A stretch of 64,000 bases of DNA. Source: Sebaldella termitidis ATCC 33386. Its GTDB lineage: Bacteria; Fusobacteriota; Fusobacteriia; Fusobacteriales; Leptotrichiaceae. The translations under genes were made by a program, and so were the position numbers. Positions within the stretch are counted from its first letter, which is position 1; every line of letters begins with the position of its first letter. Below the pieces are notes generated by a model. That model made no database searches and was not told the origin of the DNA. It saw only the letters and a program-made list of their open reading frames with translations. The stretch is from contig NC_013517.1 in the NCBI RefSeq assembly GCF_000024405.1, positions 1,798,001 through 1,862,000 of the forward strand. Direction: 5' to 3'. Shown here piece after piece: positions 1,587-40,285 of this stretch.

Positions 1587-1713
1587 TAAACCTCTTTGAA
1601 AATAGGTTTGGCAGAGTTGCTCTGCGATTATCGTTGGGTAAAAAAATAATAACGATACATTATGAAAGATACCAAAACAGAATGCTTTGATAGGGGGTAT
1701 AACGATAGAACCT
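1587..1713 (+). promoter_or_regulatory. Structured leader with competing hairpins before yqeC
   Basis: The gap between hyuA and yqeC holds three consecutive perfect stems: AAACCT/AGGTTT (1588-1593 with 1604-1609), GCAGAG/CTCTGC with a TTG loop (1611-1625), and TATCGTT/AACGATA (1629-1635 with 1651-1657). A second AACGATA at 1701-1707 and a second AACCT at 1709-1713 lie directly after the AGGGGG Shine-Dalgarno at 1692-1697, so both can pair alternatively with the upstream arms. This is the geometry of a cis-acting RNA switch over the yqeC ribosome site. It does not match the purine or E. coli Moco riboswitch sequences I can recall. Seen: the stems. Inferred: regulation. Confidence 0.5.
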
Positions 1714-1719
1714 TTGAAA

Positions 1720-2451
1720 ATGAAATATTTATATAAAGCTCTCGGACTGAAGAAAAATGATACTGTAGTGGTAACGGGAGCCGGAGGAAAGACTTCTTTT
1801 TGTCTGGAATTATGTGAAGAATTAAAAAGTAATAACAGGATAATTTTTACTACTACTACAAAGATATTTTTCCCAGAAGTCAGAAAAAATTATAAAATAT
1901 ATGTGGGTAATGACTTTTTACATAAGACTCTAACAGAAAACGGGGCATATATAACAGGGAAAGAAGAAAATGGACAGGGGAAGCTCCTTCCTTTCAGTCT
2001 TGATGAGATAGACAGCTTTAAGGAAAGAGCAGATTATCTGGTAATAGAGGGGGACGGTTCCAGAATGAGACCGCTTAAGGGCTGGAAAGAAACGGAACCT
2101 GTCTTTGTGGATAGAACAGACAGAACTGTAGGTGTAATAACCATAAAAAGTCTGGGATTAAAGGTAAATGATGAAAACATACACAGAATAGAGTTATTCC
2201 GGAAAATTTCCGGTGCAGAGGAGGGCGAAGAGGTAACAAAACAGCATTTATTCAATGTCATAATTGCAGAAAACGGTTTATTTAAAGGAGCTAAGGGGGA
2301 AAAAATCCTTCTTATAAATCAGGCCGACAGTGAAAAAGAATTTCAAGACGCACTGGATCTTGCCGGACTTTTGGTAAGAGAAAATCTGCTTCCTGATAAA
2401 ATAATAATATCTTCACTTAAAGAAAAAAAATATTATCTGTTAATTTTATAG
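1720..2451 (+). CDS. yqeC: YqeC family selenium-dependent hydroxylase accessory protein
   Basis: About 243 residues from the ATG at 1720. It has a P-loop-like VVTGAGGKTSF near the N-terminus, TTTKIFFPE, and the conserved VIEGDGSRMRPLKGW segment, which together mark the YqeC family. YqeC genes co-occur with selenium-dependent molybdenum hydroxylases (xanthine dehydrogenase, XdhD). The protein is thought to act in cofactor maturation, but its reaction is not established. The start is uncertain: the open frame runs back to TTG at 1687, and TTG 1714 and ATG 1720 lie 16-22 bases past the AGGGGG site. The best-spaced codon is an ATA at 1705. mocA follows 15 bases after the stop. Confidence 0.88.
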   Translation: MKYLYKALGLKKNDTVVVTGAGGKTSFCLELCEELKSNNRIIFTTTTKIFFPEVRKNYKIYVGNDFLHKTLTENGAYITGKEENGQGKLLPFSLDEIDSFKERADYLVIEGDGSRMRPLKGWKETEPVFVDRTDRTVGVITIKSLGLKVNDENIHRIELFRKISGAEEGEEVTKQHLFNVIIAENGLFKGAKGEKILLINQADSEKEFQDALDLAGLLVRENLLPDKIIISSLKEKKYYLLIL

Positions 2452-2466
2452 GAACAGGAGGCGGCT

Positions 2467-3054
2467 ATGAAAACAGGTGCAGTAATAATGGCTTCGGGTT
2501 TTTCCAGAAGAATGGGGGAAAACAAACTATTACTTAAATATAAAGGAAAAACATTTATTGAAAATACAGCGGATAAAGCTTTGGAATACGGTTTTGATAA
2601 AATAATACTTGTAACATCGCATAAAGAGGTAGAGCAGATTCTTGGGGACTTTGTAAAAAGCAGCAATAATTTTATGATAGTAACAAATAAAAATCCTGCC
2701 TTTGGATTAAGTGAGAGTATAAAGAACGGACTAAAGGAGCTTAGAGAATGCGATGTCTGTATGTTTTTTACAGGAGACCAGCCAGGGCTGACTCTGGGAA
2801 CGATAAAGAGAATTCTCGGTAGAGCAGGAAAAGATAAAATAATAATTCCAAAATATAGAGGAAAAAATGGAATGCCCACAGCTTTCGGCTCTGATTTTTT
2901 TGATGAGCTTATGAAACTTGAGGGAGATTCAGGCGGTAAACAAATAATGAATTCTCATAAGGAAAGTATAGAATATGTGGAAATAAACGATCCTTTGGAA
3001 GGATTTGACATAGATACCAGAGAGGATTATGAATATTTTATTTCAAAAATTTGA
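2467..3054 (+). CDS. mocA: Molybdenum cofactor cytidylyltransferase MocA
   Basis: Nucleotidyltransferase of 195 residues that transfers CMP from CTP to molybdopterin-Mo, making the MCD cofactor used by xanthine-dehydrogenase-type hydroxylases. Visible motifs are the N-terminal AVIMASGFSRRMGENKLLL nucleotide loop, FTGDQPGL around the metal-binding aspartate, and GMPTAFG. Length and motifs match MocA/YgfJ. The start ATG at 2467 follows GGAGGCGGCT. MocA beside yqeC and upstream of xdhC and yqeB indicates an MCD-type, probably selenium-containing, hydroxylase rather than a nitrate-reductase-type enzyme. Confidence 0.92.
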   Translation: MKTGAVIMASGFSRRMGENKLLLKYKGKTFIENTADKALEYGFDKIILVTSHKEVEQILGDFVKSSNNFMIVTNKNPAFGLSESIKNGLKELRECDVCMFFTGDQPGLTLGTIKRILGRAGKDKIIIPKYRGKNGMPTAFGSDFFDELMKLEGDSGGKQIMNSHKESIEYVEINDPLEGFDIDTREDYEYFISKI

Positions 3055-3070
3055 TTCTAAGGAGAAATTT

Positions 3071-3562
3071 ATGTATACAGTGGGAATAATAACAAGCAGT
3101 GATAAAGGATATAAGGGAGAGCGGGAAGATGAGAGCGGCAAGCTTATAAAAGAAATAGTAGAAAGATATAATATGAAAGTAGAGCGTTATGTAGTGCTTC
3201 CCGATGAAAAGGAAGAGCTTATGAATGAAATGATAAATATGGCGGATAATCTGAATCTGAACCTTGTACTGACTACAGGAGGAACCGGCTTCAGCAAAAG
3301 AGACGTAACTCCTGAAGCTACAAAAGCAGTAATAGAAAGAGAAGCTTCCGGTGTAGCTGAAGCAGCACGTTATTACAGCCTTTCAATTACTAAAAGAGCC
3401 ATGCTTTCAAGGGCAGTGTGCGGTATAAGAGGAGAAACCGTAATATTTAATCTGCCGGGAAGCAAAAAAGCAGTAAGAGAAGAGCTGGAATATATAATAG
3501 ACAGTCTGATTCACGGAATAGACATCCTTTTAGGAAGTGCATCGGAGTGCGGGGAAAAGTAA
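3071..3562 (+). CDS. Molybdopterin adenylyltransferase, MogA/MoaB family
   Basis: Protein of 163 residues with a single MoCF domain that binds molybdopterin and adenylylates it before metal insertion. Visible are the N-terminal VGIITSSDKGYKGEREDESG and LTTGGTGFSKRDVTPEAT (residues 67 onward), the pterin/nucleotide-binding signature. The ATG at 3071 follows AAGGAGA and begins exactly where the family begins. A longer in-frame start at 3029 would lie inside mocA. The stop at 3562 is 25 bases before the next gene. Whether it is functionally MogA or MoaB cannot be decided from the sequence. Confidence 0.9.
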   Translation: MYTVGIITSSDKGYKGEREDESGKLIKEIVERYNMKVERYVVLPDEKEELMNEMINMADNLNLNLVLTTGGTGFSKRDVTPEATKAVIEREASGVAEAARYYSLSITKRAMLSRAVCGIRGETVIFNLPGSKKAVREELEYIIDSLIHGIDILLGSASECGEK

Positions 3563-3587
3563 ACTTAAAAACCAGAAAGGAATGCAT

Positions 3588-4562
3588 ATGAAGAAAATAA
3601 ATGTCAAGGAAGCTGTAGGAATGACTCTCTGCCATGATATAACAGAAATAATTCCGGGAGGATTTAAAGGTGCAAAATTTTTGAAGGGTCACATAATAAG
3701 GGAAGATGATGTAGAAGTACTTCTTTCGCTGGGAAAAGAAAATATTTATATCTGGGAGGAAGATGAAAATTTTGTTCATGAAAATGATGCAGCAGAATTT
3801 ATAAGAAAGCAGGTAATGGGAAACGGTATGTCTGCTTCGGAAGTAAGGGAAGGGAAAATAAATTTTGTAGCCGAGTATGACGGACTTTATAAAATAAATA
3901 CAGAGCTTTTGAATAAGATAAACAGTATAGGCGAAATAATAATTGCTTCAAAATTTAATAATATTCCTGTAAAAAAAGGAGAAACAGTAGCAGCAACAAG
4001 GATAATTCCGCTGCGTATAGAAAAAAAACAGCTTGAAGAGCTTGAGGAAATAATGAAAGATAATGTACTTATGGAAATTAAAAGAATAAATCAGGACTTA
4101 AAAATAGGAATAATAACAACGGGAAATGAAATATTTTATGGAAGAATAAAGGATAAAGCAAGGGAAGCACTCGGGGAAAAGCTCGGGAAATACGGGGTTA
4201 CAAATATAGTTCAGGTTTTTATGCCTGATAAAAAAGAAAAAATCACTGCTAAAATAAAAGAACTTACTGATGATACGGATATTATACTTTGTACCGGAGG
4301 TATGTCAATCGATCCTGATGATGTGACTCCTGATGCAATAAAAGAATCCGGCTGTGAAATGGTTACATATGGTACCCCTGTACTGCCGGGAGCTATGTTT
4401 CTTTTAGGATATGTAAAGGAAAAAGTAATTATGGGGCTTCCAGGGGGAGTTGTTTTTTCAAAAAATTCTGTTTTTGATCTGCTGCTTCCAAGGATACTTG
4501 CCGGAGATATTATTACTAAAAAGGATATTATAGAAATGGGACACGGCGGTTTGTTAAGCTGA
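3588..4562 (+). CDS. MoeA-like molybdopterin-binding protein
   Basis: 324 residues from the ATG at 3588, chosen because AGAAAGGA sits 7 bases upstream; the frame itself extends back into the previous gene. Residues 170-310 form a MoCF-type domain with IGIITTGNEIFYG and CTGGMSIDPDDVTPDA, and LPGGVVF near the end. The N-terminal half (EAVGMTLCHDITEI...KGHIIREDD) resembles the shortened SAF-like part of MoeA paralogues found beside selenium-hydroxylase genes. A role in molybdate insertion or cofactor hand-over to the hydroxylase is likely. It is shorter than canonical MoeA (about 400 residues), so equivalence to MoeA is not certain. Confidence 0.85.
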   Translation: MKKINVKEAVGMTLCHDITEIIPGGFKGAKFLKGHIIREDDVEVLLSLGKENIYIWEEDENFVHENDAAEFIRKQVMGNGMSASEVREGKINFVAEYDGLYKINTELLNKINSIGEIIIASKFNNIPVKKGETVAATRIIPLRIEKKQLEELEEIMKDNVLMEIKRINQDLKIGIITTGNEIFYGRIKDKAREALGEKLGKYGVTNIVQVFMPDKKEKITAKIKELTDDTDIILCTGGMSIDPDDVTPDAIKESGCEMVTYGTPVLPGAMFLLGYVKEKVIMGLPGGVVFSKNSVFDLLLPRILAGDIITKKDIIEMGHGGLLS

Positions 4563-4574
4563 ACAGGAGAAGAT

Positions 4575-5732
4575 ATGGATTTTGACGATATAGAAAAGGA
4601 TATTATAAAATGGAGACGGATATTGCATGAAAATCCGGAGCTGTCATTCAAAGAATATGAAACAACAGAATTTATAAAGGAAAAGCTTCTTTCATTCGGG
4701 AATATTGAGATAATTCAGCCGGCAGAAACAGGGGTAATAGGCAGATTAAAGGGAGAAAATCCAGGGAGGACAATTGCATTCAGAGCTGATATAGATGCGC
4801 TTCCCTTGGAAGAAAAAACCTTCTGTGATTTCAGATCAAAGAATAACGGGGTTATGCATGCATGCGGGCATGATATGCATACTGCGATTTTATTAGGATT
4901 TGCACGTTTACTTTCAGAAAATAAACACAGGCTGAAAGGAGAAGTTTTATTTATTTTTCAGCGCGGTGAGGAGATGGCTCCCGGCGGTGCCGCAGAATTA
5001 AAAAGATCCGGAGCTTTAGATGAAGCAGAGATGATTTTTTCACTTCATGTAATGCCTGGTGAAAAAACAGGCAGAATAGGTGTGAAAAGAGGAACTGCCA
5101 CTGCGAATAAAAATACTTTTGATATATATGTAAAAGGTAAGGGCGGACACAGCTCCATGCCGCAGCAGGTAAAAGACCCGATTCTTATCGGGGCTGAAAT
5201 AGTGACTAATCTCCAGTCTGTAGTGGCAAGAAATGTTGATCCGTTTAATACTGCCGTGATTTCTACCGCGAGTTTTAAATCCGGCGAAGAATACGGAGTA
5301 ATTCCTGATACTGCCCATATAACAGGCGCTGTAAGAACCTTTGATGAAAAAACAAGGGAAATAGTGATAAGCAGAATGAAACTTATAGTAGAAAATATAT
5401 TGAAAGCATATGAAGCTGAGGGTGAAATAAAATTTTTTGAAAATGATTATAAAGCAGTATACAATGATGAGGAATTATGCGATATTGCTGAAAAAGTAAT
5501 AACAGAAAAGCTGGGGAAGGATGCTTTGGCAATAAAAGAAAGACCGGAGAGCTTCAGTGAGGATTTTTCAGAATATATAAATCCGGCTAAAGCTTGTATG
5601 GTATGGCTTGGAGCGGATAAAGACGGAAAAGAGAATCCAAAACTGCACAATCCTTATTTTTCCCCAAATGAAAAAGCAATGATAATCGGGGTAAAATATT
5701 TTTTTGGTATAGCCAAAGAACTATTAATGTAA
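4575..5732 (+). CDS. M20-family amidohydrolase (HippO/N-acyl-amino-acid type)
   Basis: Metallo-amidohydrolase of 385 residues. Metal and catalytic motifs are present: RADIDALPLEE, MHACGHDMHTA (C97, H99, H101), the catalytic glutamate pair in QRGEEMAPGG (E132/E133), SLHVMPG (H158), and a lid domain with GGHSSMPQQ. These place it in the M20D N-acyl-amino-acid/hippurate hydrolase group. It lies between two molybdenum-cofactor genes, 12 bases after the MoeA-like gene. Anaerobic urate clusters include an M20 enzyme (YgeY), so it may cleave an N-acyl or carbamoyl intermediate of purine breakdown, but the substrate cannot be read from sequence. Confidence 0.88.
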   Translation: MDFDDIEKDIIKWRRILHENPELSFKEYETTEFIKEKLLSFGNIEIIQPAETGVIGRLKGENPGRTIAFRADIDALPLEEKTFCDFRSKNNGVMHACGHDMHTAILLGFARLLSENKHRLKGEVLFIFQRGEEMAPGGAAELKRSGALDEAEMIFSLHVMPGEKTGRIGVKRGTATANKNTFDIYVKGKGGHSSMPQQVKDPILIGAEIVTNLQSVVARNVDPFNTAVISTASFKSGEEYGVIPDTAHITGAVRTFDEKTREIVISRMKLIVENILKAYEAEGEIKFFENDYKAVYNDEELCDIAEKVITEKLGKDALAIKERPESFSEDFSEYINPAKACMVWLGADKDGKENPKLHNPYFSPNEKAMIIGVKYFFGIAKELLM

Positions 5733-5778: not shown

Positions 5779-6210
5779 ATGGGAAGAATAGTAGCGATAT
5801 GCATGAGTACAAAAAAAGGAATTCAGAAAAAAGAGATAGAAGAGACAAATTTAATAGAAAAATTCGGGCTTGAAGGAGATGCCCACGGCGGTGACTGGCA
5901 CAGACAGGTTAGTCTTTTGAGCTATGAAAGTATAGAAAATTTTAAAGATAAAGGTGCAGAAGTAGACTTTGGAAGTTTTGGAGAGAATCTTATAGTACAG
6001 GGGATTGATTTTTCGTCACTTTCTATAGGAAAAAGGGTAGCGGGGGAAAACTTTGAGCTGGAGGTAACCCAGATCGGAAAAGAGTGCCATACAAGATGCA
6101 GCATTTATACAAAAATGGGTGACTGTATAATGCCGAGAGAAGGTGTTTTTGCCGTAGTAATAAAAGGCGGTCACATAAAAAAGAATGATAAAATAGAAAT
6201 AAAAGAATAG
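5779..6210 (+). CDS. MOSC domain protein
   Basis: A stand-alone MOSC domain of 143 residues. It contains GLEGDAHGGDWHRQVSLLS, GSFGENLIVQGID and the cysteine-containing GKECHTRCSIY (C103, C107), followed by PREGVFAVV. MOSC domains bind pterin-Mo and can carry sulfur or selenium on the conserved cysteine, as in Moco sulfurase C-terminal domains and YiiM/mARC proteins. In this cluster a role in delivering sulfur/selenium or sorting cofactor is plausible but unproven. AGGAGG precedes the ATG. Confidence 0.88.
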   Translation: MGRIVAICMSTKKGIQKKEIEETNLIEKFGLEGDAHGGDWHRQVSLLSYESIENFKDKGAEVDFGSFGENLIVQGIDFSSLSIGKRVAGENFELEVTQIGKECHTRCSIYTKMGDCIMPREGVFAVVIKGGHIKKNDKIEIKE

Positions 6211-6269: not shown

Positions 6270-6755
6270 ATGAGCAATGAATTAAGCCATTTTGATAAAG
6301 ACGGAAAAGCAGTAATGGTAGATATAAGCGGAAAAAATGAAACTGAAAGAACAGCTGTGGCAACGGGAGAAATAAGAATGAATCCTGATACACTGAGAAC
6401 TATTAAGGAGGGAAATATAAAAAAAGGGGATGTTCTCGGAGTAGCAAGAGTAGCAGCAATTATGGCTTCCAAAAATACCTATAATGCAATACCAATGTGT
6501 CATAATATACTTTTGTCCAGTGCAAAAATAGAATTTGAAACAGATGATAAAAACAGTCTTATAAAAATAAAGTCTACGGTAAAGACTACAGGAAAAACAG
6601 GAGTGGAAATGGAGGCTCTGATGATGGTCTCAGTAGCCGGTCTTACAATTTATGATATGTGTAAGGCCATAGATAAAGGAATGATCATCGGAGAAATAAA
6701 GCTTGAAGAAAAACTCGGCGGTAAAAGCGGAGTCTGGAAAAGAGAAGAAAAATAA
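6270..6755 (+). CDS. moaC: Cyclic pyranopterin monophosphate synthase MoaC
   Basis: 161 residues, standard length. With MoaA, MoaC converts GTP-derived 3',8-cyclo-H2GTP to cyclic pyranopterin monophosphate, the first committed step of molybdopterin synthesis. Visible are the N-terminal [29 protein letters not shown]-type [34 protein letters not shown], and the C-terminal LGGKSG. The start has GGAAAGG upstream. moaA, moaD and moaE are not in this window, so the pathway is completed elsewhere. Confidence 0.95.
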
Positions 6756-6808: not shown

Positions 6809-7048
6809 ATGTCTGAATATCAGTTTTTATTTCATAATACAAGAGGGGCGGTAAGATTTGAGGATACTCTGAAAACTAAAAATATATCCTATAAAATTAT
6901 GCCTCCGCCCGTACAGCTGGAAAACTGCTGCGGGATAAGCATCAGGCTGGAATATGATGTAGTAGAGGAATTGCTATGTCCTGATGTAAGAGAGGTGTAT
7001 TTATTTAAAGACGGAAAGTATGAACTATACTGTGAAAATAAGCAGTAA
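6809..7048 (+). CDS. DUF3343 putative Se/S-carrier-like protein
   Basis: Small acidic protein of 79 residues that fits the DUF3343 family, a TusA/YedF-like fold. It has MPPPVQLENCCGISIRLEY with an adjacent cysteine pair (C40, C41) and a third cysteine at C55 (ELLCPDV). Family members are found beside selenium-utilising genes and are thought to carry selenium or sulfur on a cysteine; this has not been shown here. It sits between moaC and the activator ATPase with a good AAAGGAG site. The vicinal cysteines and the neighbours make a chalcogen-transfer role for the hydroxylase the best guess. Confidence 0.82.
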   Translation: MSEYQFLFHNTRGAVRFEDTLKTKNISYKIMPPPVQLENCCGISIRLEYDVVEELLCPDVREVYLFKDGKYELYCENKQ

Positions 7049-7074
7049 TTAATGCTGGGAAAACAGGAGGAAAA

Positions 7075-7827
7075 ATGTATTATATAGGTATAGATATTGG
7101 TTCAACAGCAGCTAAAACAGCAGTTTTTTATAATGGAGAATTTATACATTTTTTTTCACAGCCTACCGGCTGGAGCAGTCTGGAAACAGCAGAATCAATT
7201 CTTGAAAAACTCGGAGAGAAGGGAATCAGCAGAGAAAACAGTTTTTTTACGGCAACAGGATATGGAAGAGTTTCTGTACCTTATGCTGATAAAACCGTAA
7301 CAGAGATAAGCTGTCACGGGAAAGGCGCGGATTATCTGCTGAAAAAAGACTGTACGGTTATTGATATAGGTGGACAGGATACAAAGGCTGTAAAGATAAG
7401 AAACGGTATTTTGGAAAATTTTTCAATGAATGATAAATGTTCGGCAGGAACGGGGAAATTTTTGGAAATAATGTCAAATGCAATGGGAATAAGCCTGAAT
7501 GAATTGACCGACCTGGCAGTAAACGGGAGCGGAATCAAAATAAGCTCTATGTGTACAGTGTTTGCGGAATCGGAAATAATAAGCCTTATAGGAAAAGGAA
7601 CAAAACGGGAGGATATTGCTTTTGGGATTATTAATTCTGTTATTGAGAAAGTAGTGCAGCTTTGTGTGAAACAGGAAAACAGTCTGTACTTTCTCACCGG
7701 CGGATTAAGCAGCAACAAATATATATTAAAAAAACTGGAGTCAGCTCTCGGACAAAAGGTAGAAACACATAAAAATGCCAAATATGCAGGAGCAATAGGA
7801 GCTGCACTTATAGGAAGAGGTACCTGA
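7075..7827 (+). CDS. ATPase activator of double-cubane/2-hydroxyacyl-CoA dehydratase family (YjiL-like)
   Basis: 250 residues with the ASKHA ATPase fold of the BadF/BcrA/HgdC family. Visible are phosphate loop [16 protein letters not shown], a second [11 protein letters not shown], and the adenosine segment near LTGGLSSN. Two cysteines, C122 in [11 protein letters not shown] and C160 in [10 protein letters not shown], are at the positions that hold one [4Fe-4S] cluster across the homodimer. Such proteins use ATP hydrolysis to push a low-potential electron into a partner enzyme. The partner is the next gene, 31 bases downstream. Size and pairing match E. coli YjiL/YjiM. Confidence 0.9.
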
Positions 7828-7858
7828 GGAAAATCTTGAAATTGGGAGAGTGAGAATT

Positions 7859-9007
7859 ATGGAAGAAAATAAACTTCCGGAAATTTTTGAAACATTTGGA
7901 GATGCGAGAAAAAATGGATTTGTTACTGTAAAAGAATTAAAGGATAAGGGAAAAAAAGTAGTAGGGACCTTCTGTACCTATACGCCGAAAGAACTTATTT
8001 ATGCTGCGGGTGCATATCCTGTAGGACTTTGTGCTACAAGTGAGGAAACAATTCCCGAAGCTGAAAAGAAGCTTCCAAAAAACTTATGTCCGCTGATAAA
8101 AGCAAGTTATGGCTTTGCAGCAACAGATAAGTGCCCTTACATGTATTTTTCAGATTTGGTTGTCGGGGAAACTACATGTGACGGCAAAAAGAAGATGTAC
8201 GAGCTTTTAGGAGAAATAAAAGATGTGCATGTATTGCAGCTTCCCCAGAATCAGGATGAAAGAAGCCTGAAGCTGTGGACTGAGGAAATACACCATTTTA
8301 AAAAGGTACTTGAGGAAAAATTTGATGTAACAATAACGGAACAGGATCTGAAAGATGCTGTTAAGCTGTGTAATGACGAGAGAGAAGTAATGCAGAGATT
8401 TTACGAGCTTGGAAAACTAACGCCTCCGCCTTTAAGCGGTCTTGAAATGCATACTATTATGCATGGAACTACATTTACATTTGATAAAAACGAGCAGATA
8501 AAAAATATAAACGAAGTAATAGAAAAATTGATACAAAAACATCAGGAAGGAAAAAGCGAGGTAAGTGAAAGTGCGAAAAGAATTCTGATTACAGGATGTC
8601 CGAGCGGGGGAATAGTGGAAAAAATAATAAAGCCGCTGGAAGAAAGCGGAGCAGTAGTGGTATGCTTTGAAAATTGTATTGGAATAAAAAGCTTTGACAG
8701 AATGGTGAATACCGAAAAAGATCCGGTAGAGGCAATAGCCGAACGATATTTAAAAATACCGTGTTCTGTAATGACGCCGAACAAAGGACGTGAGGAACTT
8801 TTGGTAAAGCTTATAGAAGAATATAAAGTAGACGGTGTAATAGATGTTATTCTCCAGGCCTGTCACACTTATAATGTAGAAACTGAAAAAATCAGAGAAG
8901 TGGTTCAGGGTGCAGATACACCGTATATGAGTCTGGAAACTGATTATTCCCTGAGTGATTTCGGACAGATAAAAACAAGATTAGAGGCATTTGTAGAAAT
9001 GCTGTGA
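7859..9007 (+). CDS. Double-cubane-cluster / 2-hydroxyacyl-CoA dehydratase-like protein (YjiM-like)
   Basis: 382 residues from the ATG at 7859 (GGGAG upstream); a GTG at 7850 is less well placed. The N-terminal half carries C39 ([21 protein letters not shown]), C58, C77, C92 and C107, and the C-terminal half carries [17 protein letters not shown] and LQACHTYN. This cysteine-rich two-domain layout matches HgdB-type proteins and single-subunit double-cubane cluster proteins (DCCP), which reduce small substrates with ATP-driven electrons from their activator. There is no second dehydratase subunit nearby, which favours DCCP over a true hydroxyacyl-CoA dehydratase. The substrate is unknown; its place in a Mo/Se cluster is suggestive. 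Confidence 0.87.
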
Positions 9008-9026: not shown

Positions 9027-9842
9027 ATGCATGAAAATCTGGTGATAGTAAGAGGAGGAGGAGATATTGCCTCCGGCTCAATAGAAAAGCTTCATAAATG
9101 CGGTTTTAACGTGCTTGTTTTGGAAGTGGAAAATCCAAGCTCTATAAGAAGAAAAGTGTGCTATGGCGAGGCTGTATACACTGGAGAAATGGAAATAGAG
9201 GGAATAAAATCAAAAAAGATAAAATATCTTGATGAGATAAATAAGATGTTTGAGGAAAGAGTAATTCCGGTACTAATAGATCCTATGGCGGAATGTACCC
9301 AGATACTAAATCCTGTGGCACTGGTAGACGGAATACTTGCCAAAAAAAATTACGGAACAAACAGGGGAATGGCACCAGTAACAATAGCGCTGGGACCGGG
9401 ATTTACTGCCGGAAAAGATGTAGATATAGTGATAGAAACAATGAGAGGGCATAATCTGGGAAGACTTATATATGAGGGGGAAGCTATGACTAATACCGGA
9501 GTTCCCGGAAATATAGGAGGCTTTACAAAGGAAAGAGTTATTTACAGTGAATATGAGGGTGTTATAAATAATATACACGAAATAGGCGATATAGTGAAAA
9601 AAGGTGATATTCTTGCGAAAATAGGCGGTAATGAAGTTTATGCATCTATTGACGGTGTATTAAGAGGAATGATCAGAGATGGGTTTTATGTAACCAAGAA
9701 ATTTAAAATAGCGGATATAGATCCCAGAAAGGATGAGCAGAAAAACTGTTTTACAATTTCCGACAAGTCAAGAAGTATAGGCGGAGCAGTATTGGAAGCT
9801 GTAATTTCATCAATGAAGAAAAAAGGATTTCATTTATTTTAG
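9027..9842 (+). CDS. yqeB: YqeB family selenium-dependent Mo hydroxylase protein
   Basis: 271 residues, the short form of the YqeB/EF2563 family. The N-terminal VIVRGGGDIASGSIEKL is a dinucleotide-binding-like loop. It is followed by the conserved LEVENPSSIRRKVCYGEAVY, LIDPMAECT, APVTIALGPGFTAGKDVD and MRGHNLGRLIYEG. YqeB is a phylogenetic marker of selenium-dependent molybdenum hydroxylases and its biochemical activity is not established. It starts 19 bases after the double-cubane gene and is followed after 67 bases by xdhC. Confidence 0.9.
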   Translation: MHENLVIVRGGGDIASGSIEKLHKCGFNVLVLEVENPSSIRRKVCYGEAVYTGEMEIEGIKSKKIKYLDEINKMFEERVIPVLIDPMAECTQILNPVALVDGILAKKNYGTNRGMAPVTIALGPGFTAGKDVDIVIETMRGHNLGRLIYEGEAMTNTGVPGNIGGFTKERVIYSEYEGVINNIHEIGDIVKKGDILAKIGGNEVYASIDGVLRGMIRDGFYVTKKFKIADIDPRKDEQKNCFTISDKSRSIGGAVLEAVISSMKKKGFHLF

Positions 9843-9909: not shown

Positions 9910-10743
9910 ATGGAAGAGTTAATCTTAAAAAAGATACTGGAAAATCTGGAGAATCATAAAAAAGTAGCATTGGTAACTTTAACCGATGTAGGGGGCTCGA
10001 CACCGCGTGATACCGGCTCGCTTATGCTTGTTTGGGAAAACGGCGAGACATACGGTTCTATCGGCGGAGGAAAGGTAGAATATTTTGTTACCGGAGAAGC
10101 TGTGGAAGCTTTGAAGCAGAATACAGACAGAAATTTTGAACACAGTCTGACACCTGACGGTGATCTGGAAATGCAGTGCGGCGGTACTGTAAAAGGATTT
10201 ATAAAAATTTTCAGACCAAATGAAAAAATAGTTATTGCCGGCGGAGGACATGTTGGTGAAAAAGTTCTGGAACTGGCTAAATTTCTTGGATTTACCTGTG
10301 AGGTGATTGATGACAGGGAAGATTACATAGATAAACCCAGTCTTCAAAAGGCTGATAAAATAACAGTCGGTTTTTATAAGGATATAGTGAAGGATGCGGC
10401 AATAGATGAAAATACCTATGTGGTAATTGCTACAAAAAGTCATATTACCGATCTTGAATTTGTAAAAGAAGTGCTTAAAACAAAGGCAAGATATATAGGA
10501 ACAATAGGAAGCAGAAAAAAACAGATATTTCTGCGGGAGGAGCTTCTGCAGGACGGTTTTTCTGCCGAAGATATAAAGCGTATTTACGGGCCTGTAGGAA
10601 TAAATATATCCAATCAGATGCCGGAAGAGATAGCAGTGAGCATACTTGCAGAGATACTTATGGTAAAAAACGGAGGTACTACGGAACACAGAAAACTGGA
10701 AGATTCCATTGTTGATAATATAGTACAGAAGCATTTAAAATAA
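9910..10743 (+). CDS. xdhC: XdhC-family molybdenum cofactor sulfurase/insertion chaperone
   Basis: 277 residues. The N-terminal XdhC/CoxI domain shows VGGSTPRDTGSLMLV, GSIGGGKVEY and LEMQCGGTVKGFI (C90). The C-terminal Rossmann domain shows VIAGGGHVGEKVLELAKFLGF and the EVIDDREDY segment. XdhC binds Moco, aids its sulfuration and inserts it into xanthine dehydrogenase. It is the last gene of the cluster, with a terminator 14 bases past the stop. Together with mocA, yqeB and yqeC it predicts a hydroxylase gene close by, outside the window. Confidence 0.93.
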   Translation: MEELILKKILENLENHKKVALVTLTDVGGSTPRDTGSLMLVWENGETYGSIGGGKVEYFVTGEAVEALKQNTDRNFEHSLTPDGDLEMQCGGTVKGFIKIFRPNEKIVIAGGGHVGEKVLELAKFLGFTCEVIDDREDYIDKPSLQKADKITVGFYKDIVKDAAIDENTYVVIATKSHITDLEFVKEVLKTKARYIGTIGSRKKQIFLREELLQDGFSAEDIKRIYGPVGINISNQMPEEIAVSILAEILMVKNGGTTEHRKLEDSIVDNIVQKHLK

Positions 10744-11427: not shown

Positions 11428-12282
11428 ATGAATTCATTATCAAATATAAGCTGTGAAGCTGTATTACCTGTAACTGAACTAAAAAGCACAGATGAAATAG
11501 AGAGAAGCATACAAAAAAAATATAGAAAATACCTGTGGTCGCCTTTTATAAAAGCTGCAAAAGAATTTTCCCTTGTAGAAGACGGAGACAGAATAGCAGT
11601 GGCTATATCAGGCGGCAAAGACAGCCTTCTTCTGGCAAAGCTCCTGCAGGAACTACAAAGGGCAAGTAGAACAGAATTTGAACTGGTTTTTATTTCTATG
11701 AATCCCGGATTTAATTCTGAAAATTTGGAAAATCTGAAAAAAAATCTGGATCATCTACGGATACCCTGTGAGATATATGATGATAATATATTTGAAATAG
11801 CTGAAAAAATGGCAAAGGATTATCCTTGCTATATGTGTGCCAAAATGAGAAGGGGGAGCCTGTATACCAAGGCAGTGAGTCTGGGCTGTAATAAGCTTGC
11901 TTTGGGGCATCATATGGATGATGTGGCGGAAACGGTCCTTATGAGCATGTTTCAGATGAGTAAATATGAAACAATGCTTCCCAGACTAAAAGCAGATAAT
12001 TTTGATATAGAACTAATAAGACCGCTTTATTATGTAGAGGAAAAAGATATAATAAAGTTCACTGCAAATAACGGGATTCTGGCTATGAACTGCGGGTGTA
12101 CAGTAGCAGCGGGGAAAACCTCGTCAAAAAGACGGGAAACAAAAGAGCTCATCAGAGAGCTTGCCAAGAGTAACCCCAACATAAAGAAAAACATATTAAA
12201 CTCTACCAAAAATGTAAATTTGGAAAAAATTCTGGGATGGAAGATCGGCGGTAAAAAATACGGTTATCTTGATAAATATTAA
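11428..12282 (+). CDS. TtcA-like tRNA 2-thiocytidine synthetase
   Basis: PP-loop ATPase of 284 residues. The nucleotide loop is AVAISGGKDSLLLA (SGGKDS at 61-66). It is followed by a CxxC pair (YPCYMCAKMRRG) and LGHHMDDVAETVLMSMF. A further NCGC motif is near residue 215. The two cysteine sites and the SGGKDS loop mark the TtcA family, which binds an Fe-S cluster and thiolates C32 of certain tRNAs. It is not TilS, which lacks these cysteines. The C-terminal tail is longer than the core enzyme needs. The start is supported by AAGGAG. Confidence 0.85.
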   Translation: MNSLSNISCEAVLPVTELKSTDEIERSIQKKYRKYLWSPFIKAAKEFSLVEDGDRIAVAISGGKDSLLLAKLLQELQRASRTEFELVFISMNPGFNSENLENLKKNLDHLRIPCEIYDDNIFEIAEKMAKDYPCYMCAKMRRGSLYTKAVSLGCNKLALGHHMDDVAETVLMSMFQMSKYETMLPRLKADNFDIELIRPLYYVEEKDIIKFTANNGILAMNCGCTVAAGKTSSKRRETKELIRELAKSNPNIKKNILNSTKNVNLEKILGWKIGGKKYGYLDKY

Positions 12283-33355: not shown

Positions 33356-36300
33356 ATGAAAGCAAATAAAAAATTATTAGTATCATTTTTAGCATTGAAT
33401 GCAGTATTATCAGTAAATGCCAGCGGAGCAGAAAAAGCAGCATCATCTAAATATGACAGAATGTATAACAGTATGGTAAAGAATCTTGAACAGGGAAAAT
33501 CTAACCAGAAAAACTATGAAATAATAGAACGAATACTTAATCAAAAAAATAAAGAATTAAAAGATTTATATCTACAGGGAGAATATGTTGTAAAACCTGA
33601 ATATCTGGAATGGCAGGTATTTTTCTCAGGATTTTATGATGAATACGGTAAGGGTGTAGATAATACTTCAGAAAATGCGGCCTATCATACTAAGGTAAGC
33701 GGATATTATGACGATAATGGTAATTATGTAACGACAAGCAGCAGTATAAACGGAATGGCGGGGAAACCTTATCAGCCATTACAGCAGCCGAAAGACATTA
33801 ATCTGGGAGTGAGTATTCCTTTGAAGGGAATGAGCAGGGAACCGCTTACATTATCATTATCTCCGGCAAGTGAAATAAGTATAAATCCGAGCACTCTTAC
33901 AGTAACTGCACCGACAGGGGTATCGATACCGTCTCTAAGTTTTCTGGAATTCCAGCCGCTGGAACCGATAGTAGAGTTACCACAGCTTGTACCGATTCCG
34001 ATAATAACAATCGGTGGAGCAGGAGGCGGTAACGGCGGATACACAGGATTTTATCCAAACAGTGATCCAGATGGTAATGCTATCATATCGCAGATGGATG
34101 TTCTTACAGGTGAGATTTATGCACATATAGCTAGTCATTCGGGTACAGGCGGATACGGCTCAAAAGTAATTTATGACAATTATGCGCTTACTAATTTAAC
34201 AGGAGGGCCGTCAGCAGGACTGACTATATCAGCCGGTGGACAGGCATTACCTGCCGGAGTATATAATTCTACTACAAATACAAGTGTTCAGGGAATATTT
34301 AAAGTCGTGGATAATACATTAACAAGATATGGAGTAGTAGGAAGCAATCCTGACGATCTGTCAATAACTCTGGAAGGGGATGACCCAAACCCGGTATTTT
34401 TAGGACAAATACTTCACTATGACGAACATTATTATGGGACACAATATAGACTTGACGGACTTGAAGCACAGGGCTGGATAACAGCAGCAGAAAAAGCAGA
34501 GCTTGCAGATAAGTTTCTTGATCCGGTGCTGGGTCATACAACTGCAAACAGATATTTCCAATATGTAGAAAATAACAGTACATGGAATCTGAAAGGATCC
34601 AGCATAGTAGCTGTGAATCTGCAGGCACACAGCGGTGGTCAGGCTGCAAACAGTATATTTATGAACAGGGGAAAAATAATAGGTCTGAATGAAGCAAGTA
34701 CAAATAATAATCTGGTAGGAAATCAGGTTGCCTTTATGTTTACTGAGGGAACAAGCAGTCAGAAACAGGAAGGGTTTGATAATACAGGCTTAATAGAAAT
34801 GAGAGCTCCGGGAAATGTCATCTATTTAATGACAAGCAGTGCGTCTTCTTCGGGTAATGGAAAACATATTCTTATGAATAACGGGGACATGAAGCTTTAC
34901 GGCAGACAAAATGTAGGGGTATATACAAGATCTGGAACAACAAATCTTACAAGAACAGAAATAAAATTATATAATCCGATAACAGTTCTGGGTGATGAAA
35001 GTATTGGTGTAGATATAGAAAGAGTATTAAACTTCGCCAATTCAAAAATAAAAGTAGATGTGGGAACAGAGGATCCTAAACAAACAGTAACAAGTATGTC
35101 GGGAGTAAACGGACTTGAAAACAGCGGTCATATAGCAAGTACAGGATATAGCGATCAGCATACTGATAATGCAATTGGAATGTATATTAATTTGGCATCA
35201 ACATTTACTCTGGATGACTATGAAATAAAACTGGGAGAATACTCTCAGAAAGGCATAGGAGTGAGAATTGAAAACGGTCATCTGACTCTGGGAAGTAATA
35301 TGCTGGATACAACAACAAAACACTCGCTGATAAGTGACGGCGGGATAGGGAATATATTAATTGCAGGAATCGGTTCTTCTTCATCTGTAACAACTGATGC
35401 AAATACTATATTAGAAGTAAAAAATGGTAAGTCACAGGTAGGAGTGTATGCTAATACAGGTTCAAGTGTTATTAATGCAGGGACATTAAATGCAAGCGGA
35501 GAAGGAACAAAAGGAATAGTCGTAGATACTGCAAGTACAATAACAAATTCCGGAGTAATTAATGTGTCAGGAGGAGTATATACTGATTCTTCAAATAATA
35601 AATCAGGATCTGTGGGAGTAGCAGTAAAAGATGCAGGTTCGACATTTACATCAGCAGGAGTGGGAAGCAATGTAACAGTAGATGTATCTGGTAAAGAATC
35701 TACAGGGCTGTTTGCTGATACAGGAGTAATTGATATTACAAACGGAACAATAAAAACTTCTGACGGTGCATTTAATTTATACGCCAAAGGAAGTACAGGA
35801 AAAATAAAGCTGACAAATGTAAATATGGAAACAGGTCAGAGATCACTGCTTTTCTATAATGAAAACGGAGGAACTTTTGAGCTGAATAATGTAAATGCCA
35901 CAATAAAAGGTGCTGCGAATGCAAATGACAGAGGAACGGCTTTTTACTATGTAGGAACAGGTGTTCTGCCAACATTGACAACTGCAGATTTATCAGCATA
36001 TTTTGCAAGCGTATTTAATAATACGGCAAATAATTTAACATTAAATATGGAGACAGGATCAAGATTATTTATAGTAGATAATGTGTCAATAGATCTGAGT
36101 GTAACAGCAACACCTCTAGGTTCTATAGCAGGAGGACCGACGGTAACAGGAAGTTCTGATTATAAAACATATATGATGTATAAAAGTCTGCTTGGCATAG
36201 ATCAGAATATCGCTCTTGATACAGCCACAGATGCATATAATAATCTGGAAATAGTAACATCAAGTATATATAATAACGGATACAACATAACTGGAAGTCT

Positions 36301-39300
36301 TACAAATCAAGTAGCAATGGGACAGGAAAACGGACTGGATACTCTCGGGGTTTCATTGCCGAGAAGTACAGTATCACTGACTAATGACGGAGGAAATATA
36401 ACATTATCGGGAGCTTCTTCTGTGGGAATGTACGCGAATTACGGGGAATTAAGAAATATGAATTCCGGAGTAATTAATGTAAGCGGGGCAGGATCTATAG
36501 GAATGTACGGGGCAAATGGTACTCTGGCAGATAATCAGACAGGATCTGTTATTAATATTTCCAGTTCAGGAGTAGGAATATATGCAGAAGGTAATAAACA
36601 AGGAATAGCACAGACTTTCGGAAACGGGAAAATAGATATAGTAAACAGTGGATTAATACAGGCAGGGGCATCATCTAATGCAATGGGAATATATGCAAAT
36701 AATAACAGTACGGGAATAGCGGCAGATGCACACGTAAATCTTTCAAACGGTACGATAGATCTGGGAGCTTCTGAAAATGCAGTTGGTGTTTTTGTAGATA
36801 AAGGAACTGTAACAGATTCAGGCTCTACAATAACAGTAGGTAAAAACGGAGTGGCTCTTTATGCTAAAGACAGTGTTGTAACTTTGGCAGGAACTACAAT
36901 AAATCTGTTCGGTGATAACTCATTAGGACTTTATCTTGACGGAACAACAAGCTTTACTGGAAGCGGAAATATAAATATAAACGGACAGAATGTTGTGTTG
37001 TTTAATATGAATTCAAGCGGAGCAATCAGTAATTCATTTAATGTAGTAAGTGTTGCACCGGGTTCTACATATACATTAGGAAATATAACAGGAGGAGTAT
37101 TTGAATACACAGGAAGCAGTAATCTTGCTTCAAACGGAACTCTTGTATCCGGAACAGGGTCAGCAATATATTTAAACGGTTCTGCAATAACAGCATCTCC
37201 CGGCTCTACAAATGTAGCAGGTGTTGTATTAGACGGACCATATACCGGGTTTAGTCCGCTGCCCGCAGGAATGACTTCGGGAACGGACGGTGAAAATGCA
37301 GGGATTATTACTTTGGGAGATAGTTCTGTCGGTATATACGGTAAAAATGGTTCAAGAATAAGTAATACAAATACAATAACAGTAGATAATGCTTCAGCAG
37401 GATTAATGACTTCCGGAGCAGGAGCTTTTGCTCAGAATAGCGGAACAATAACAGTAGGAACAGGTTCTCAGGGTATCTATCTGAAAGACGGGGATTATGC
37501 TCAGAATACAGGGAATATATTAAGTGCCGGAGCCGGAACAGTAGGTATTTATGCAAATAATGCATCGGTGCATGTAACTAATGGCGGAAATATTGATCTG
37601 TCAGGAGATAAATCAATAGGTATTTATTCTATAGGTACAATTCCGCAAAATATAAATAATACAGGAGCATTAAAAATAGGAGATTCTGTAAATACATCAG
37701 ATCCAAGTATAGGAATATACGGTGCAGTGGCAGGAAGCACAATAACAAACAGCGGAACAGTCACATCAGGAGTAAGATCAATAGGTATGTACAGTAACGG
37801 AGGAACTGTTAATAATATTGGTGCTTCAAACATAGGTAACTCAGGAGTGGGGATATATTCTACCGGGGGAGTTGTTAATCTAAATTCAGGTTCTGCATTT
37901 AATATGGGAACAAACGGAGCAGTGGGAGTATACGGAGTATATTCTGCTGTAAATAACTCTGCTGATCTTAATATAGGAAACAGCAACTATGGATACATTC
38001 TAAAAGGCGGATCACTGACAAATGCGGCAGGAACAAACAGCAGTATTGGTGATGATTCGGTATATATGTATAGTACTGAAGGAACAACGGTAACTAATGA
38101 CGGAACTCTGATAATGTCAGGAGCAAATAATGTAGGCTTCTATATGGCACAGGATCCGACAAGCAAAGTTGGCGGAGCTGTTATGATTAATAATGCCGGA
38201 GGTAATATTTCTGGAACTGTAGGAAATAACAATGTCGGAATATATAACTATGGTGGTATTGTAGATAACTACGGCGATGTGGCAGTGGGTAATTCAGATA
38301 TTAAATTTATAACAGGGACTACAAATGTAGATGTTAAAGCTAGTAAGTATTCAGTCGGGATCTACGGAGAGAATGCCGCGATTATAAACCGTGCGGGAGC
38401 TAATGTATCAGCAGGCTACGGCGGATATGGAATAGTAGCAAAAGGCGGAACTGCAAGCAACTTTGGAACAGTAACAACTACAGGTGATTATTCTACAGGT
38501 ATGTATACAGAAAACGGAGTAATAACAAATGAAGCAGGCGGAACTATAAATGTTTCAGGTAATAATACAATAGGAATGGCAGGAAAAGGAATAGGTTCGC
38601 ACATAATAAACCATGGAACAATTAATATAACAGGTAATGACGCAATAGGTATGTATGGTAATCTTGGAACAGTAATAACAAATACAGGGACAATCGATAT
38701 ATCGGGACAGAACAGCCAGATATTCGTATCATCAGATCCAGATGATCCCGGACATACAGTAGGAGCAGGAACGGCAACTATAAACGGAGGAACAGCAGCA
38801 AATGTGATAAGCTCGATTGGAAATATTCATGCTCTGCCGGCATTGATAAATGCAGGAATTATAAAATCAAACGGAGTACTGGCATTAGATGGTGTACAGG
38901 TAATGGTAAAGCCTGATCCTACGACAGCGCAGCCGTCATCAGATCCTAATTTTGATTTTTCATTATCGGGAACTTCGATAATAGCGGATGAAGTATTGAC
39001 ATCAAAGCCGATAGTAATACTTCCGGGATTCTCTGACGGAACAATAGCAGATGTATATAAACTGGAAGGATTAATAAAGGCATCATCAGGACAGTATGAC
39101 TTTGTAAGCGGATCATTGTTATGGGAAGCAACACCAAGAGCAACAGGAACAGGTGCAGATATATATATGTCAAGAAAAGCATTTACGGAATTTACAGACG
39201 GTTTATGGTATGAAGACTTTGGTACTGCATTGGAAAATAACTTCTTGGGTGCGACAGGCGACGGAGTGAAAATATATAATAAAACAGCATATATTCCTGA

Positions 39301-40285
39301 TGAACAAAATTTCAGACATATAATGGGAAGTCTTGCAGGAAATGTGTATGCTAATATAAACCAGAGAGAAGACGATATAGCCAAAACATTTGAAAATTCA
39401 TTGCATTTATTACAGGATTCAACAAACAATACAAAAGAAAATGTAAAAATAAATGTAATAGCAGGAAAAGGAAAGAACAAAGAAGAAACAGACGGAGTAA
39501 CAGGGTATGACTACACAACAACAGGAGTACTTGCATTAAGAGAAGTAGAAAGAACATATAAGCATACATTTGGTTATTCATTAGGATATTTACATACAGG
39601 ATTTGAATTTAATGACGGGAACAGCAGCGAAGAATGGGTGGATACTGTACAGCTTGGATTACATAACAAGTATAAAACAAACGGATGGACATTAAGAAAT
39701 GATCTGACAGGAAGGGTAAGTATTCATAACGTGGACAGAAATATAGACTGGCCGTCACCGCTTGGCAGATCAGAAATGAACGGAACATACGAAACATACA
39801 GTATAACAAGTGACAATATACTAGGGAAAGAATTTGGACTAGGAAAGAAAGCAAGTATAATGCCGTATGGAGCATTTAGAGCTATGTATGTGACAAGACC
39901 GGATTTCAGTGAGAGCGGACTGGAAAAGCTTGAGGTGGAAGGAAATGATGCATGGAGTGCTAAGCCGAGAGCCGGGGTAGAGCTGAAAGGAGCGCTGCCG
40001 TTAGGAGCTAATACAGCATGGCAATTAAAGGGTACGCTTGATTTTGCTTATGAATATGAGCTTGCAGACCTTAATGAAAGAGAAAAAGCAAGACTGATAG
40101 CAATAGAAGACGGGTATCATAAACTTTCAAAACCGCAGGATGAAAAAGGAACATTCAGAACAAGAGCAGCAATAGGCGTAGAGATAGAAGACAGATACGG
40201 AATATTCCTAACAGGAGAGTACTCAACAGGAAATGATAAGGAAAATGATTACAGAGCAGGAGTAACTTTAAAAGCAGTATTTTAA
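33356..40285 (+). CDS. Giant type V autotransporter, paralogue 1
   Basis: 2309 residues. A signal peptide (about 1-24) is followed by the fusobacterial autotransporter-associated N-terminal domain (YDRMYNSMVKNLEQGKSN, YVVKPEYLEWQVFFSGFYD, about 30-110). Next comes a Pro-rich stretch (about 175-230), then a very long passenger of Gly/Asn/Ser/Thr-rich turns such as VGIYG, NSGTI and GSQGIYLKDG, typical of a beta-helix. The C-terminal barrel (about 1950-2309) begins near LWYEDFG and ends in the outer-membrane signature YRAGVTLKAVF with terminal Phe. It should display the passenger on the surface as an adhesin or interaction factor. Very similar at both ends to 51912-58625. Monocistronic. Confidence 0.93.
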   Translation: MKANKKLLVSFLALNAVLSVNASGAEKAASSKYDRMYNSMVKNLEQGKSNQKNYEIIERILNQKNKELKDLYLQGEYVVKPEYLEWQVFFSGFYDEYGKGVDNTSENAAYHTKVSGYYDDNGNYVTTSSSINGMAGKPYQPLQQPKDINLGVSIPLKGMSREPLTLSLSPASEISINPSTLTVTAPTGVSIPSLSFLEFQPLEPIVELPQLVPIPIITIGGAGGGNGGYTGFYPNSDPDGNAIISQMDVLTGEIYAHIASHSGTGGYGSKVIYDNYALTNLTGGPSAGLTISAGGQALPAGVYNSTTNTSVQGIFKVVDNTLTRYGVVGSNPDDLSITLEGDDPNPVFLGQILHYDEHYYGTQYRLDGLEAQGWITAAEKAELADKFLDPVLGHTTANRYFQYVENNSTWNLKGSSIVAVNLQAHSGGQAANSIFMNRGKIIGLNEASTNNNLVGNQVAFMFTEGTSSQKQEGFDNTGLIEMRAPGNVIYLMTSSASSSGNGKHILMNNGDMKLYGRQNVGVYTRSGTTNLTRTEIKLYNPITVLGDESIGVDIERVLNFANSKIKVDVGTEDPKQTVTSMSGVNGLENSGHIASTGYSDQHTDNAIGMYINLASTFTLDDYEIKLGEYSQKGIGVRIENGHLTLGSNMLDTTTKHSLISDGGIGNILIAGIGSSSSVTTDANTILEVKNGKSQVGVYANTGSSVINAGTLNASGEGTKGIVVDTASTITNSGVINVSGGVYTDSSNNKSGSVGVAVKDAGSTFTSAGVGSNVTVDVSGKESTGLFADTGVIDITNGTIKTSDGAFNLYAKGSTGKIKLTNVNMETGQRSLLFYNENGGTFELNNVNATIKGAANANDRGTAFYYVGTGVLPTLTTADLSAYFASVFNNTANNLTLNMETGSRLFIVDNVSIDLSVTATPLGSIAGGPTVTGSSDYKTYMMYKSLLGIDQNIALDTATDAYNNLEIVTSSIYNNGYNITGSLTNQVAMGQENGLDTLGVSLPRSTVSLTNDGGNITLSGASSVGMYANYGELRNMNSGVINVSGAGSIGMYGANGTLADNQTGSVINISSSGVGIYAEGNKQGIAQTFGNGKIDIVNSGLIQAGASSNAMGIYANNNSTGIAADAHVNLSNGTIDLGASENAVGVFVDKGTVTDSGSTITVGKNGVALYAKDSVVTLAGTTINLFGDNSLGLYLDGTTSFTGSGNININGQNVVLFNMNSSGAISNSFNVVSVAPGSTYTLGNITGGVFEYTGSSNLASNGTLVSGTGSAIYLNGSAITASPGSTNVAGVVLDGPYTGFSPLPAGMTSGTDGENAGIITLGDSSVGIYGKNGSRISNTNTITVDNASAGLMTSGAGAFAQNSGTITVGTGSQGIYLKDGDYAQNTGNILSAGAGTVGIYANNASVHVTNGGNIDLSGDKSIGIYSIGTIPQNINNTGALKIGDSVNTSDPSIGIYGAVAGSTITNSGTVTSGVRSIGMYSNGGTVNNIGASNIGNSGVGIYSTGGVVNLNSGSAFNMGTNGAVGVYGVYSAVNNSADLNIGNSNYGYILKGGSLTNAAGTNSSIGDDSVYMYSTEGTTVTNDGTLIMSGANNVGFYMAQDPTSKVGGAVMINNAGGNISGTVGNNNVGIYNYGGIVDNYGDVAVGNSDIKFITGTTNVDVKASKYSVGIYGENAAIINRAGANVSAGYGGYGIVAKGGTASNFGTVTTTGDYSTGMYTENGVITNEAGGTINVSGNNTIGMAGKGIGSHIINHGTINITGNDAIGMYGNLGTVITNTGTIDISGQNSQIFVSSDPDDPGHTVGAGTATINGGTAANVISSIGNIHALPALINAGIIKSNGVLALDGVQVMVKPDPTTAQPSSDPNFDFSLSGTSIIADEVLTSKPIVILPGFSDGTIADVYKLEGLIKASSGQYDFVSGSLLWEATPRATGTGADIYMSRKAFTEFTDGLWYEDFGTALENNFLGATGDGVKIYNKTAYIPDEQNFRHIMGSLAGNVYANINQREDDIAKTFENSLHLLQDSTNNTKENVKINVIAGKGKNKEETDGVTGYDYTTTGVLALREVERTYKHTFGYSLGYLHTGFEFNDGNSSEEWVDTVQLGLHNKYKTNGWTLRNDLTGRVSIHNVDRNIDWPSPLGRSEMNGTYETYSITSDNILGKEFGLGKKASIMPYGAFRAMYVTRPDFSESGLEKLEVEGNDAWSAKPRAGVELKGALPLGANTAWQLKGTLDFAYEYELADLNEREKARLIAIEDGYHKLSKPQDEKGTFRTRAAIGVEIEDRYGIFLTGEYSTGNDKENDYRAGVTLKAVF

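Follow-up and report, generated by a model that had tools for sequence, protein, structure and literature searches.

Double-cubane cluster proteins (DCCPs) are known from Carboxydothermus hydrogenoformans, in which a single-subunit HgdB-like protein with conserved cysteines is paired with an activator ATPase, DCCPR (6eno, 7yyl). The literature covered here, part of it represented by citing papers, gives the structure of DCCP and its test-tube reactions, with no established physiological role. Within the same partial coverage, a link between DCCP and selenium is already present, provisionally. DCCP and DCCPR occur in type 1 mlp gene clusters of the selenium type (Kountz and Balskus 2023, PMC10418091). 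In Slackia, STRING connects selenium genes with an activase and with a subunit of 2-hydroxyglutaryl-CoA dehydratase (Lin 2015, Table 1, PMC5322559). In Calderihabitans, a LysR regulator shares one transcription unit with DCCP (PMC7306483), and a LysR subfamily has been linked to selenium (Lin 2015, PMC5322559). An Escherichia coli transcriptome table shows yjiM and yjiL changing in the same direction as the formate hydrogenlyase genes (PMC9068703), a trend that is compatible with a selenium role and not specific to it.

Here, we analyze three adjacent genes, encoding a DUF3343 protein, an activator ATPase, and a DCCP, in a 64,000-nucleotide stretch of the Sebaldella termitidis ATCC 33386 genome (NC_013517.1, positions 1,798,001 to 1,862,000; hereafter the window, with positions counted from its first letter). 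The pair of ATPase and single-subunit HgdB-like protein, with its conserved cysteines, resembles the C. hydrogenoformans system. It differs in lying beside a DUF3343 protein with a Cys-Cys (CC) motif, inside a run of genes from yqeC to yqeB/xdhC, and the window copy is known from its sequence alone. E. coli K-12, a selD genome, has neighbouring, co-directional genes of these three families, ytiA-yjiL-yjiM. There, however, DCCP comes first, no selenium gene lies within ~8 kb, and YtiA has GGCG rather than CCG. The window locus is located inside the accessory system for Se-dependent molybdenum hydroxylases (yqeB, yqeC, mocA/ygfJ, and selD; Haft and Self 2008, PMC2276186), but the DCCP pair is neither confined to that system nor obligatory within it. 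Unlike the type 1 mlp clusters, the window cluster contains no methyltransferase genes. DUF3343 has been proposed as a selenium chaperone in a study that found no clear selenium-related branch of the family (Lin 2015, PMC5322559). The window protein belongs to this family, which follows selD in Fusobacteriota (SelD in 54 of 55 DUF3343 carriers). In contrast to that study, a CC subset here marks genes beside activase or DCCP. The trio is a known kind of reductase in a new partnership and context. We found no earlier account of strict selD nesting, trait independence, or the CC-motif partnership in the literature, in which citing papers alone stand in for Jeoung and Dobbek 2018 and 2022 and for Haft and Gwadz 2023.

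Results and Discussion

The first gene of the trio (6809..7048, + strand) encodes a 79-aa Se_S_carrier-like protein of the DUF3343 family (PF11823), which scores 48.6 bits against a cut-off of 25 and contains the Cys41-Gly42 element. The second (7075..7827, +) encodes an activator ATPase of the acyl-CoA dehydratase activase/DCCP reductase type (TIGR00241 CoA_E_activ, 256 bits; cut-off 125). Its two predicted cluster cysteines, Cys122 (7438-7440, +) and Cys160 (7552-7554, +), are exactly where the initial annotation had placed them. The third (7850..9007, +) encodes the single-subunit DCCP and begins at GTG 7850 or possibly at ATG 7859. It scores 550 bits with NF040772 double_cubane, above the equivalog cut-off of 350 for the family named "double-cubane-cluster-containing anaerobic reductase". 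Among solved structures it is most similar to 6eno and 7yyl (E 4e-85), and eight of its cysteines (42, 61, 80, 95, 110, 276, 305, and 338) align with cysteines of 6eno in a sequence alignment. A profile search of the whole genome returned no other NF040772-related match. Assignment as a two-subunit 2-hydroxyacyl-CoA dehydratase (HgdAB/HadBC) was rejected, as the cluster contains a single HGD-D gene and the second subunit is absent.

All three open reading frames are intact and lie on one strand, with 26 and 22 bp between them, 53 bp separating them from moaC, and 19 bp to yqeB. Plausible ribosome-binding sites precede the genes of the moaC to yqeB stretch. Upstream of the trio are yqeC (1687..2451, +; TIGR03172, 164.7 bits), a mocA/ygfJ-like cytidylyltransferase (2467..3054, +; 185.1 bits, slightly below the cut-off of 186.45), and, from profile matches, genes for a MogA/MoaB-like molybdopterin-binding protein (3029..3562, +), a MoeA-like protein (3537..4562, +), an M20-family peptidase/amidohydrolase (4575..5732, +), a MOSC-domain protein (5779..6210, +), and MoaC (6270..6755, +). 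Downstream are yqeB, the selenium-dependent molybdenum hydroxylase marker (9027..9842, +; TIGR03309, 356.7 bits), and an xdhC-family maturation factor (9910..10743, +), which matches Pfam XdhC_C and XdhC_CoxI and falls under the NCBIfam xdhC cut-offs. Terminator-like sites at ~1611 and ~10757, which are consensus matches only, flank the run from yqeC to xdhC. Profile scores and intact reading frames thus bear out the initial annotation on the identities and coordinates of the trio, on its position between moaC and yqeB/xdhC, and on its embedding in a molybdenum-selenium maturation cluster.

Outside the window, ~17-37 kb upstream of the trio, are genes for a selenium-dependent XDH (TIGR03311, 1409 bits), ygfK, ssnA, ygeW, ygeY, and selD; a xanthine permease, a MoeA-type gene, and a tungstate/molybdate-type transporter are also encoded upstream of the window. 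SelD maps to G000:C1:1767447 in this genome, in which SelA gives only weak matches (~71 bits; cut-off 268). SelA above the cut-off was not found in three congeners either. In this organism the hydroxylase route is probably the sole use of selenophosphate from SelD, which would explain the trio's place inside the Mo-Se cluster. Near xdhC is a TtcA-like PP-loop gene (11428-12282) that is still there in congeners without the DCCP pair (L129, L130); TtcA-like matches also occur downstream of yedF-DUF3343 in a further locus (L138), near 9.2 and 10.0 kb. The window also contains two very long open reading frames, at 33356-40285 (2309 aa) and 51912-58625 (2237 aa).

The vicinal cysteine pair attributed to DUF3343 is present as Cys40-Cys41 (codons 6926..6931, +), but only one of its members is a family feature. 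Among 22 homologues, Phe8, Pro34, Cys41, and Gly42 are the only invariant residues, so that Cys41 is found family-wide and Cys40 in a subset. Of 33 DUF3343 proteins encoded next to activase or DCCP, 18 have the CCG motif, compared with none of the 25 whose only links are to YedF, SelD, or Sec lyase (p = 2e-6, an optimistic value because some sequences are close relatives). CCG is otherwise seen only in G088 and G089, congeners without the pair. The nearest relative of the window protein outside the genus is encoded between DCCP and activase (L161). At the sequence level, then, the CC motif marks the DUF3343 subset partnered with activase/DCCP. An AlphaFold model (pLDDT 87.6) predicts a small alpha/beta fold with the cysteine pair in a loop ahead of a strand. 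A fold search gave weak PII/ACT-like matches only (best E 0.012); because these are weak, no function is assigned to DUF3343 from its fold. A sequence search of the PDB gave no match at E up to 10.

The distribution of DCCP was compared with that of selenium genes in 195 evenly drawn Clostridia genomes, which contain DCCP in 27 (above cut-off), SelD in 49, yqeB in 25, SelA in 36, and DUF3343 in 132. One further DCCP, at 325 bits, lies below the cut-off and brings some counts to n = 28. selD is present in 27/27 DCCP genomes, and DCCP is present in 0/146 genomes without selD (Fisher 5e-20; the Fisher tests count genomes as independent though they are related, and presence lists were transcribed from result tables). 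About 43% of the selD-positive Clostridia have no DCCP, indicating that DCCP is not required for selenium use. DUF3343 was rejected as a selenium marker by itself, since its 132 carriers far exceed the selD count. The 98 Fusobacteriota genomes surveyed contain full-length DCCP in 18, yqeB in 48, DUF3343 in 55, and SelD in 57; SelD is present in all 18 DCCP genomes versus 57/98 in the background (p = 2e-5). Two of these genomes, G045 (L139) and G097, have SelD yet neither SelA nor yqeB above cut-off. Scanning the genome collection with the DCCP alignment yielded 80 loci, and 50 of their genomes were checked for SelD, which was found in 49; SelD occurs in 38% of bacteria (Lin 2015, PMC5322559). 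The single exception is a metagenome-assembled genome in which genes for Sec lyase and DUF3343 lie a few kilobases from DCCP (L050). Of the 14 genomes used as controls, only E. coli and M. jannaschii have DCCP, and they are also the only ones with DUF3343 and the only ones with SelD above the cut-off. All three samples show the nesting in selD genomes expected of a general selenium-utilisation gene.

Such nesting could also arise if DCCP and selD merely shared a lifestyle, strict anaerobiosis with low-potential chemistry, and DCCP acted on a substrate other than selenium. DCCP does reduce non-selenium molecules in vitro (PMC7306483), and many of its loci are unlinked to selenium genes. Clostridia, however, are anaerobic as a group, yet none of the 146 surveyed that lack selD carries DCCP, and in Fusobacteriota the remaining HgdB-like proteins are distributed independently of SelD (19/32 vs 38/66, p = 1.0). 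We therefore consider an incidental linkage highly improbable.

A role confined to Mo/Se hydroxylase maturation was the model of the initial annotation, in which the pair would reduce the chalcogen or the Mo cofactor ahead of the XdhC insertion step. The setting of the trio between moaC and yqeB/xdhC suggests this role, as does a Clostridia layout, yqeC-yqeB-yedF-selD-DCCP-activase-mocA, that recurs in three genomes without SelA (L165-L167). DCCP is also near yqeB in L051, L078, L099, and L110, and adjoins it in L051. In Fusobacteriota, yqeB is present in all 18 DCCP genomes, and among selD-positive genomes DCCP leans toward yqeB (18/18 vs 28/39, p = 0.011, with genomes treated as independent and kinship ignored). 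The Clostridia argue otherwise. Within the 49 selD-positive genomes, yqeB is found in 15/28 with DCCP versus 10/21 without it (p = 0.78), and DCCP is likewise independent of SelA (p = 0.11). DCCP occurs in 5/12 hydroxylase-only genomes, 13/22 selenocysteine-only genomes, and 10/13 genomes with both traits. The 13 yqeB-negative carriers show that DCCP is not restricted to yqeB genomes, as would be expected of a member of the hydroxylase accessory set, and 30 of the 48 yqeB-positive Fusobacteriota lack it. A yqeB-specific role was dropped on the Clostridia result, and dedication of the pair to hydroxylase maturation is, in our judgment, a poor explanation. Because DCCP is common to all selenium traits and absent from selD-less genomes, its simplest placement is at or above SelD. 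The DCCP pair probably acts in selenium supply at this level rather than in hydroxylase-specific insertion.

Comparison of four genomes of the genus (the window genome, G000, and G088, G089, and G090) points the same way on the dedicated role. An intact pair is present in G090, whose DCCP is 98% identical to the window copy. G089, which is 99% complete, lacks the pair and has yqeB directly after DUF3343. G088 retains a DCCP remnant of 26 codons, 77% identical and derived from the 3' end, between DUF3343 and yqeB (L129 9964-10041, -), with no activase at the site; this stump is direct evidence of loss. G088 and G089 both keep the CC-type DUF3343, yqeB, yqeC, xdhC, and selD, so the pair is dispensable for keeping the maturation cluster. 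Loss in two of the four genomes could indicate that the pair arrived with the CC-type DUF3343, has little function in the cluster, and is now decaying. The window genome and G090 carry intact copies of both genes, with the family-invariant residues kept, and we regard a decaying accessory of low value as improbable.

The initial annotation was thus half right in its interpretation. The three genes do form a selenium-linked unit, and the DCCP pair recurs with yqeC-yqeB-selD-mocA in Clostridia; the connection to selenium holds and is stronger than first thought. The predicted co-occurrence with selD was found throughout, that with yqeB appeared as a lean in Fusobacteriota and was absent from Clostridia once selD was taken into account, and the hydroxylase-specific model was not upheld. 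A DUF3343 carrier working with a double-cubane reductant remains the most reasonable proposed chemistry, detached from Mo hydroxylase maturation.

Gene neighborhoods were scored within 6.5 kb of DCCP in the 80 loci, some of which are cut by contig ends; labels come from HMMs built here on clustered neighbours, and the Sec lyase label takes in related cysteine desulfurases. Activase is near DCCP in 57/80 loci and DUF3343 in 20/80. A selenium gene is present in 25/80 and a methyltransferase gene in 11/80, which resolves to 21 loci with selenium genes only, 7 with methyltransferase genes only, 4 with both, and 48 with neither. The recurrent linkage partners are Sec lyase, YedF, selD, and DUF3343. 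On the DCCP tree, the selenium label requires 14 changes, at least 10 of them forced by well supported branches. A selenium-specific DCCP clade was rejected on account of this scatter; the window copy lies outside any selenium-linked clade, in a fusobacterial clade where most DCCP genes are either unlinked or have methyltransferase genes nearby.

DUF3343 abuts DCCP in 14 of the 28 Clostridia DCCP genomes. A second Clostridia layout is a compact DCCP-DUF3343-activase triad whose DCCP is a subtype with an N-terminal extension (L153-L164, L170, L171). This subtype typically lies beside a CC-type DUF3343; the second DCCP of L041, L046, L097, and L107 also belongs to it, and the four extended copies that the DCCP tree includes group on a branch of their own. 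Near one triad, a 620-aa fusion of an ATP-pyrophosphatase (Dph6-like) and a cysteine desulfurase/Sec-lyase-like domain (L159 7882-9741, -), with similar genes in L162 and L171, is a possible selenium or sulfur activation enzyme. In Fusobacteriota outside the genus, DUF3343 accompanies yedF in most sampled loci, usually near selD, and DCCP lies apart with its own activase or beside corrinoid methyltransferase genes; among these loci, only G082 has DCCP ~4 kb or less from DUF3343-yedF-selD.

The methyltransferase neighbors raise the question of whether the substrate is an organoselenium compound, such as methylated selenium or a selenoamino acid, whose C-Se bond the pair breaks as a selenium counterpart of MarHDK, with the released selenide carried by DUF3343. 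UroD-type or corrinoid methyltransferase genes lie near DCCP in the 11 loci above and in fusobacterial L112, L114, L115, and L119. Most such clusters have been assigned to methyl-selenide metabolism, with the nitrogenase-like MarHDK in a non-selenium clade (PMC10418091). No methyltransferase genes are found near the window copy or near most DCCP-DUF3343-activase triads, and the argument would proceed purely by analogy. We consider C-Se cleavage by the trio unlikely.

The protein families, the ligand cysteines as read in the sequence, the operon-like spacing, the selD nesting, the trait independence, the gene linkage, and the CC motif were obtained directly. From these, we propose that the trio is an ATP-driven, very-low-potential reductase with a DUF3343 cysteine carrier that serves selenium assimilation at or above SelD. 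The substrate is predicted, and we assign this reading a probability of roughly 0.5. The trio would probably help to supply usable selenium rather than fit selenium into one enzyme. In the proposed mechanism, the activase would spend ATP to push an electron onto the [Fe8S9] cluster of DCCP, as in the solved DCCP systems. The CC-type DUF3343 would present selenium as a perselenide or Se(0) on Cys41, with Cys40 as a resolving thiol, and the double-cubane cluster would reduce the bound selenium to selenide for SelD. The pair would be optional, widening or speeding selenium supply, and would not be needed to keep the hydroxylase maturation system. Against selenium assimilation stand the reported activity of DCCP on small molecules, e.g., acetylene (PMC7306483), and the 48 of 80 DCCP loci at which neither a selenium gene nor a methyltransferase gene was recognised within 6.5 kb.

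The standard potential of the Se/H2Se couple is -0.40 V, from which we calculate ~-0.55 to -0.57 V for Se(0)/Se(-II) at pH 7 and 1-10 uM selenide. This range is below what ordinary thiols or ferredoxin supply. A more specific and wider proposal, which we advance tentatively and at well short of even odds, is that double-cubane proteins are the ATP-driven selenide-generating reductases of anaerobes, with the DUF3343 Cys-Cys motif presenting Se(0) or perselenide and DCCP reducing it at ~-0.55 V or below. Reduction of Se(0)/perselenide and cleavage of C-Se bonds would have the same outcome, and the present data do not separate them.

Conclusions

The nesting of DCCP in selD genomes, whatever the selenium trait, ties its role to how cells make enough selenide for SelD. 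If the proposal is correct, selenide generation would be the first physiological substrate reaction for the double-cubane metallocluster. Both questions, the role of DCCP and the source of sufficient selenide, are approachable in E. coli K-12, where ytiA-yjiL-yjiM is the corresponding trio.
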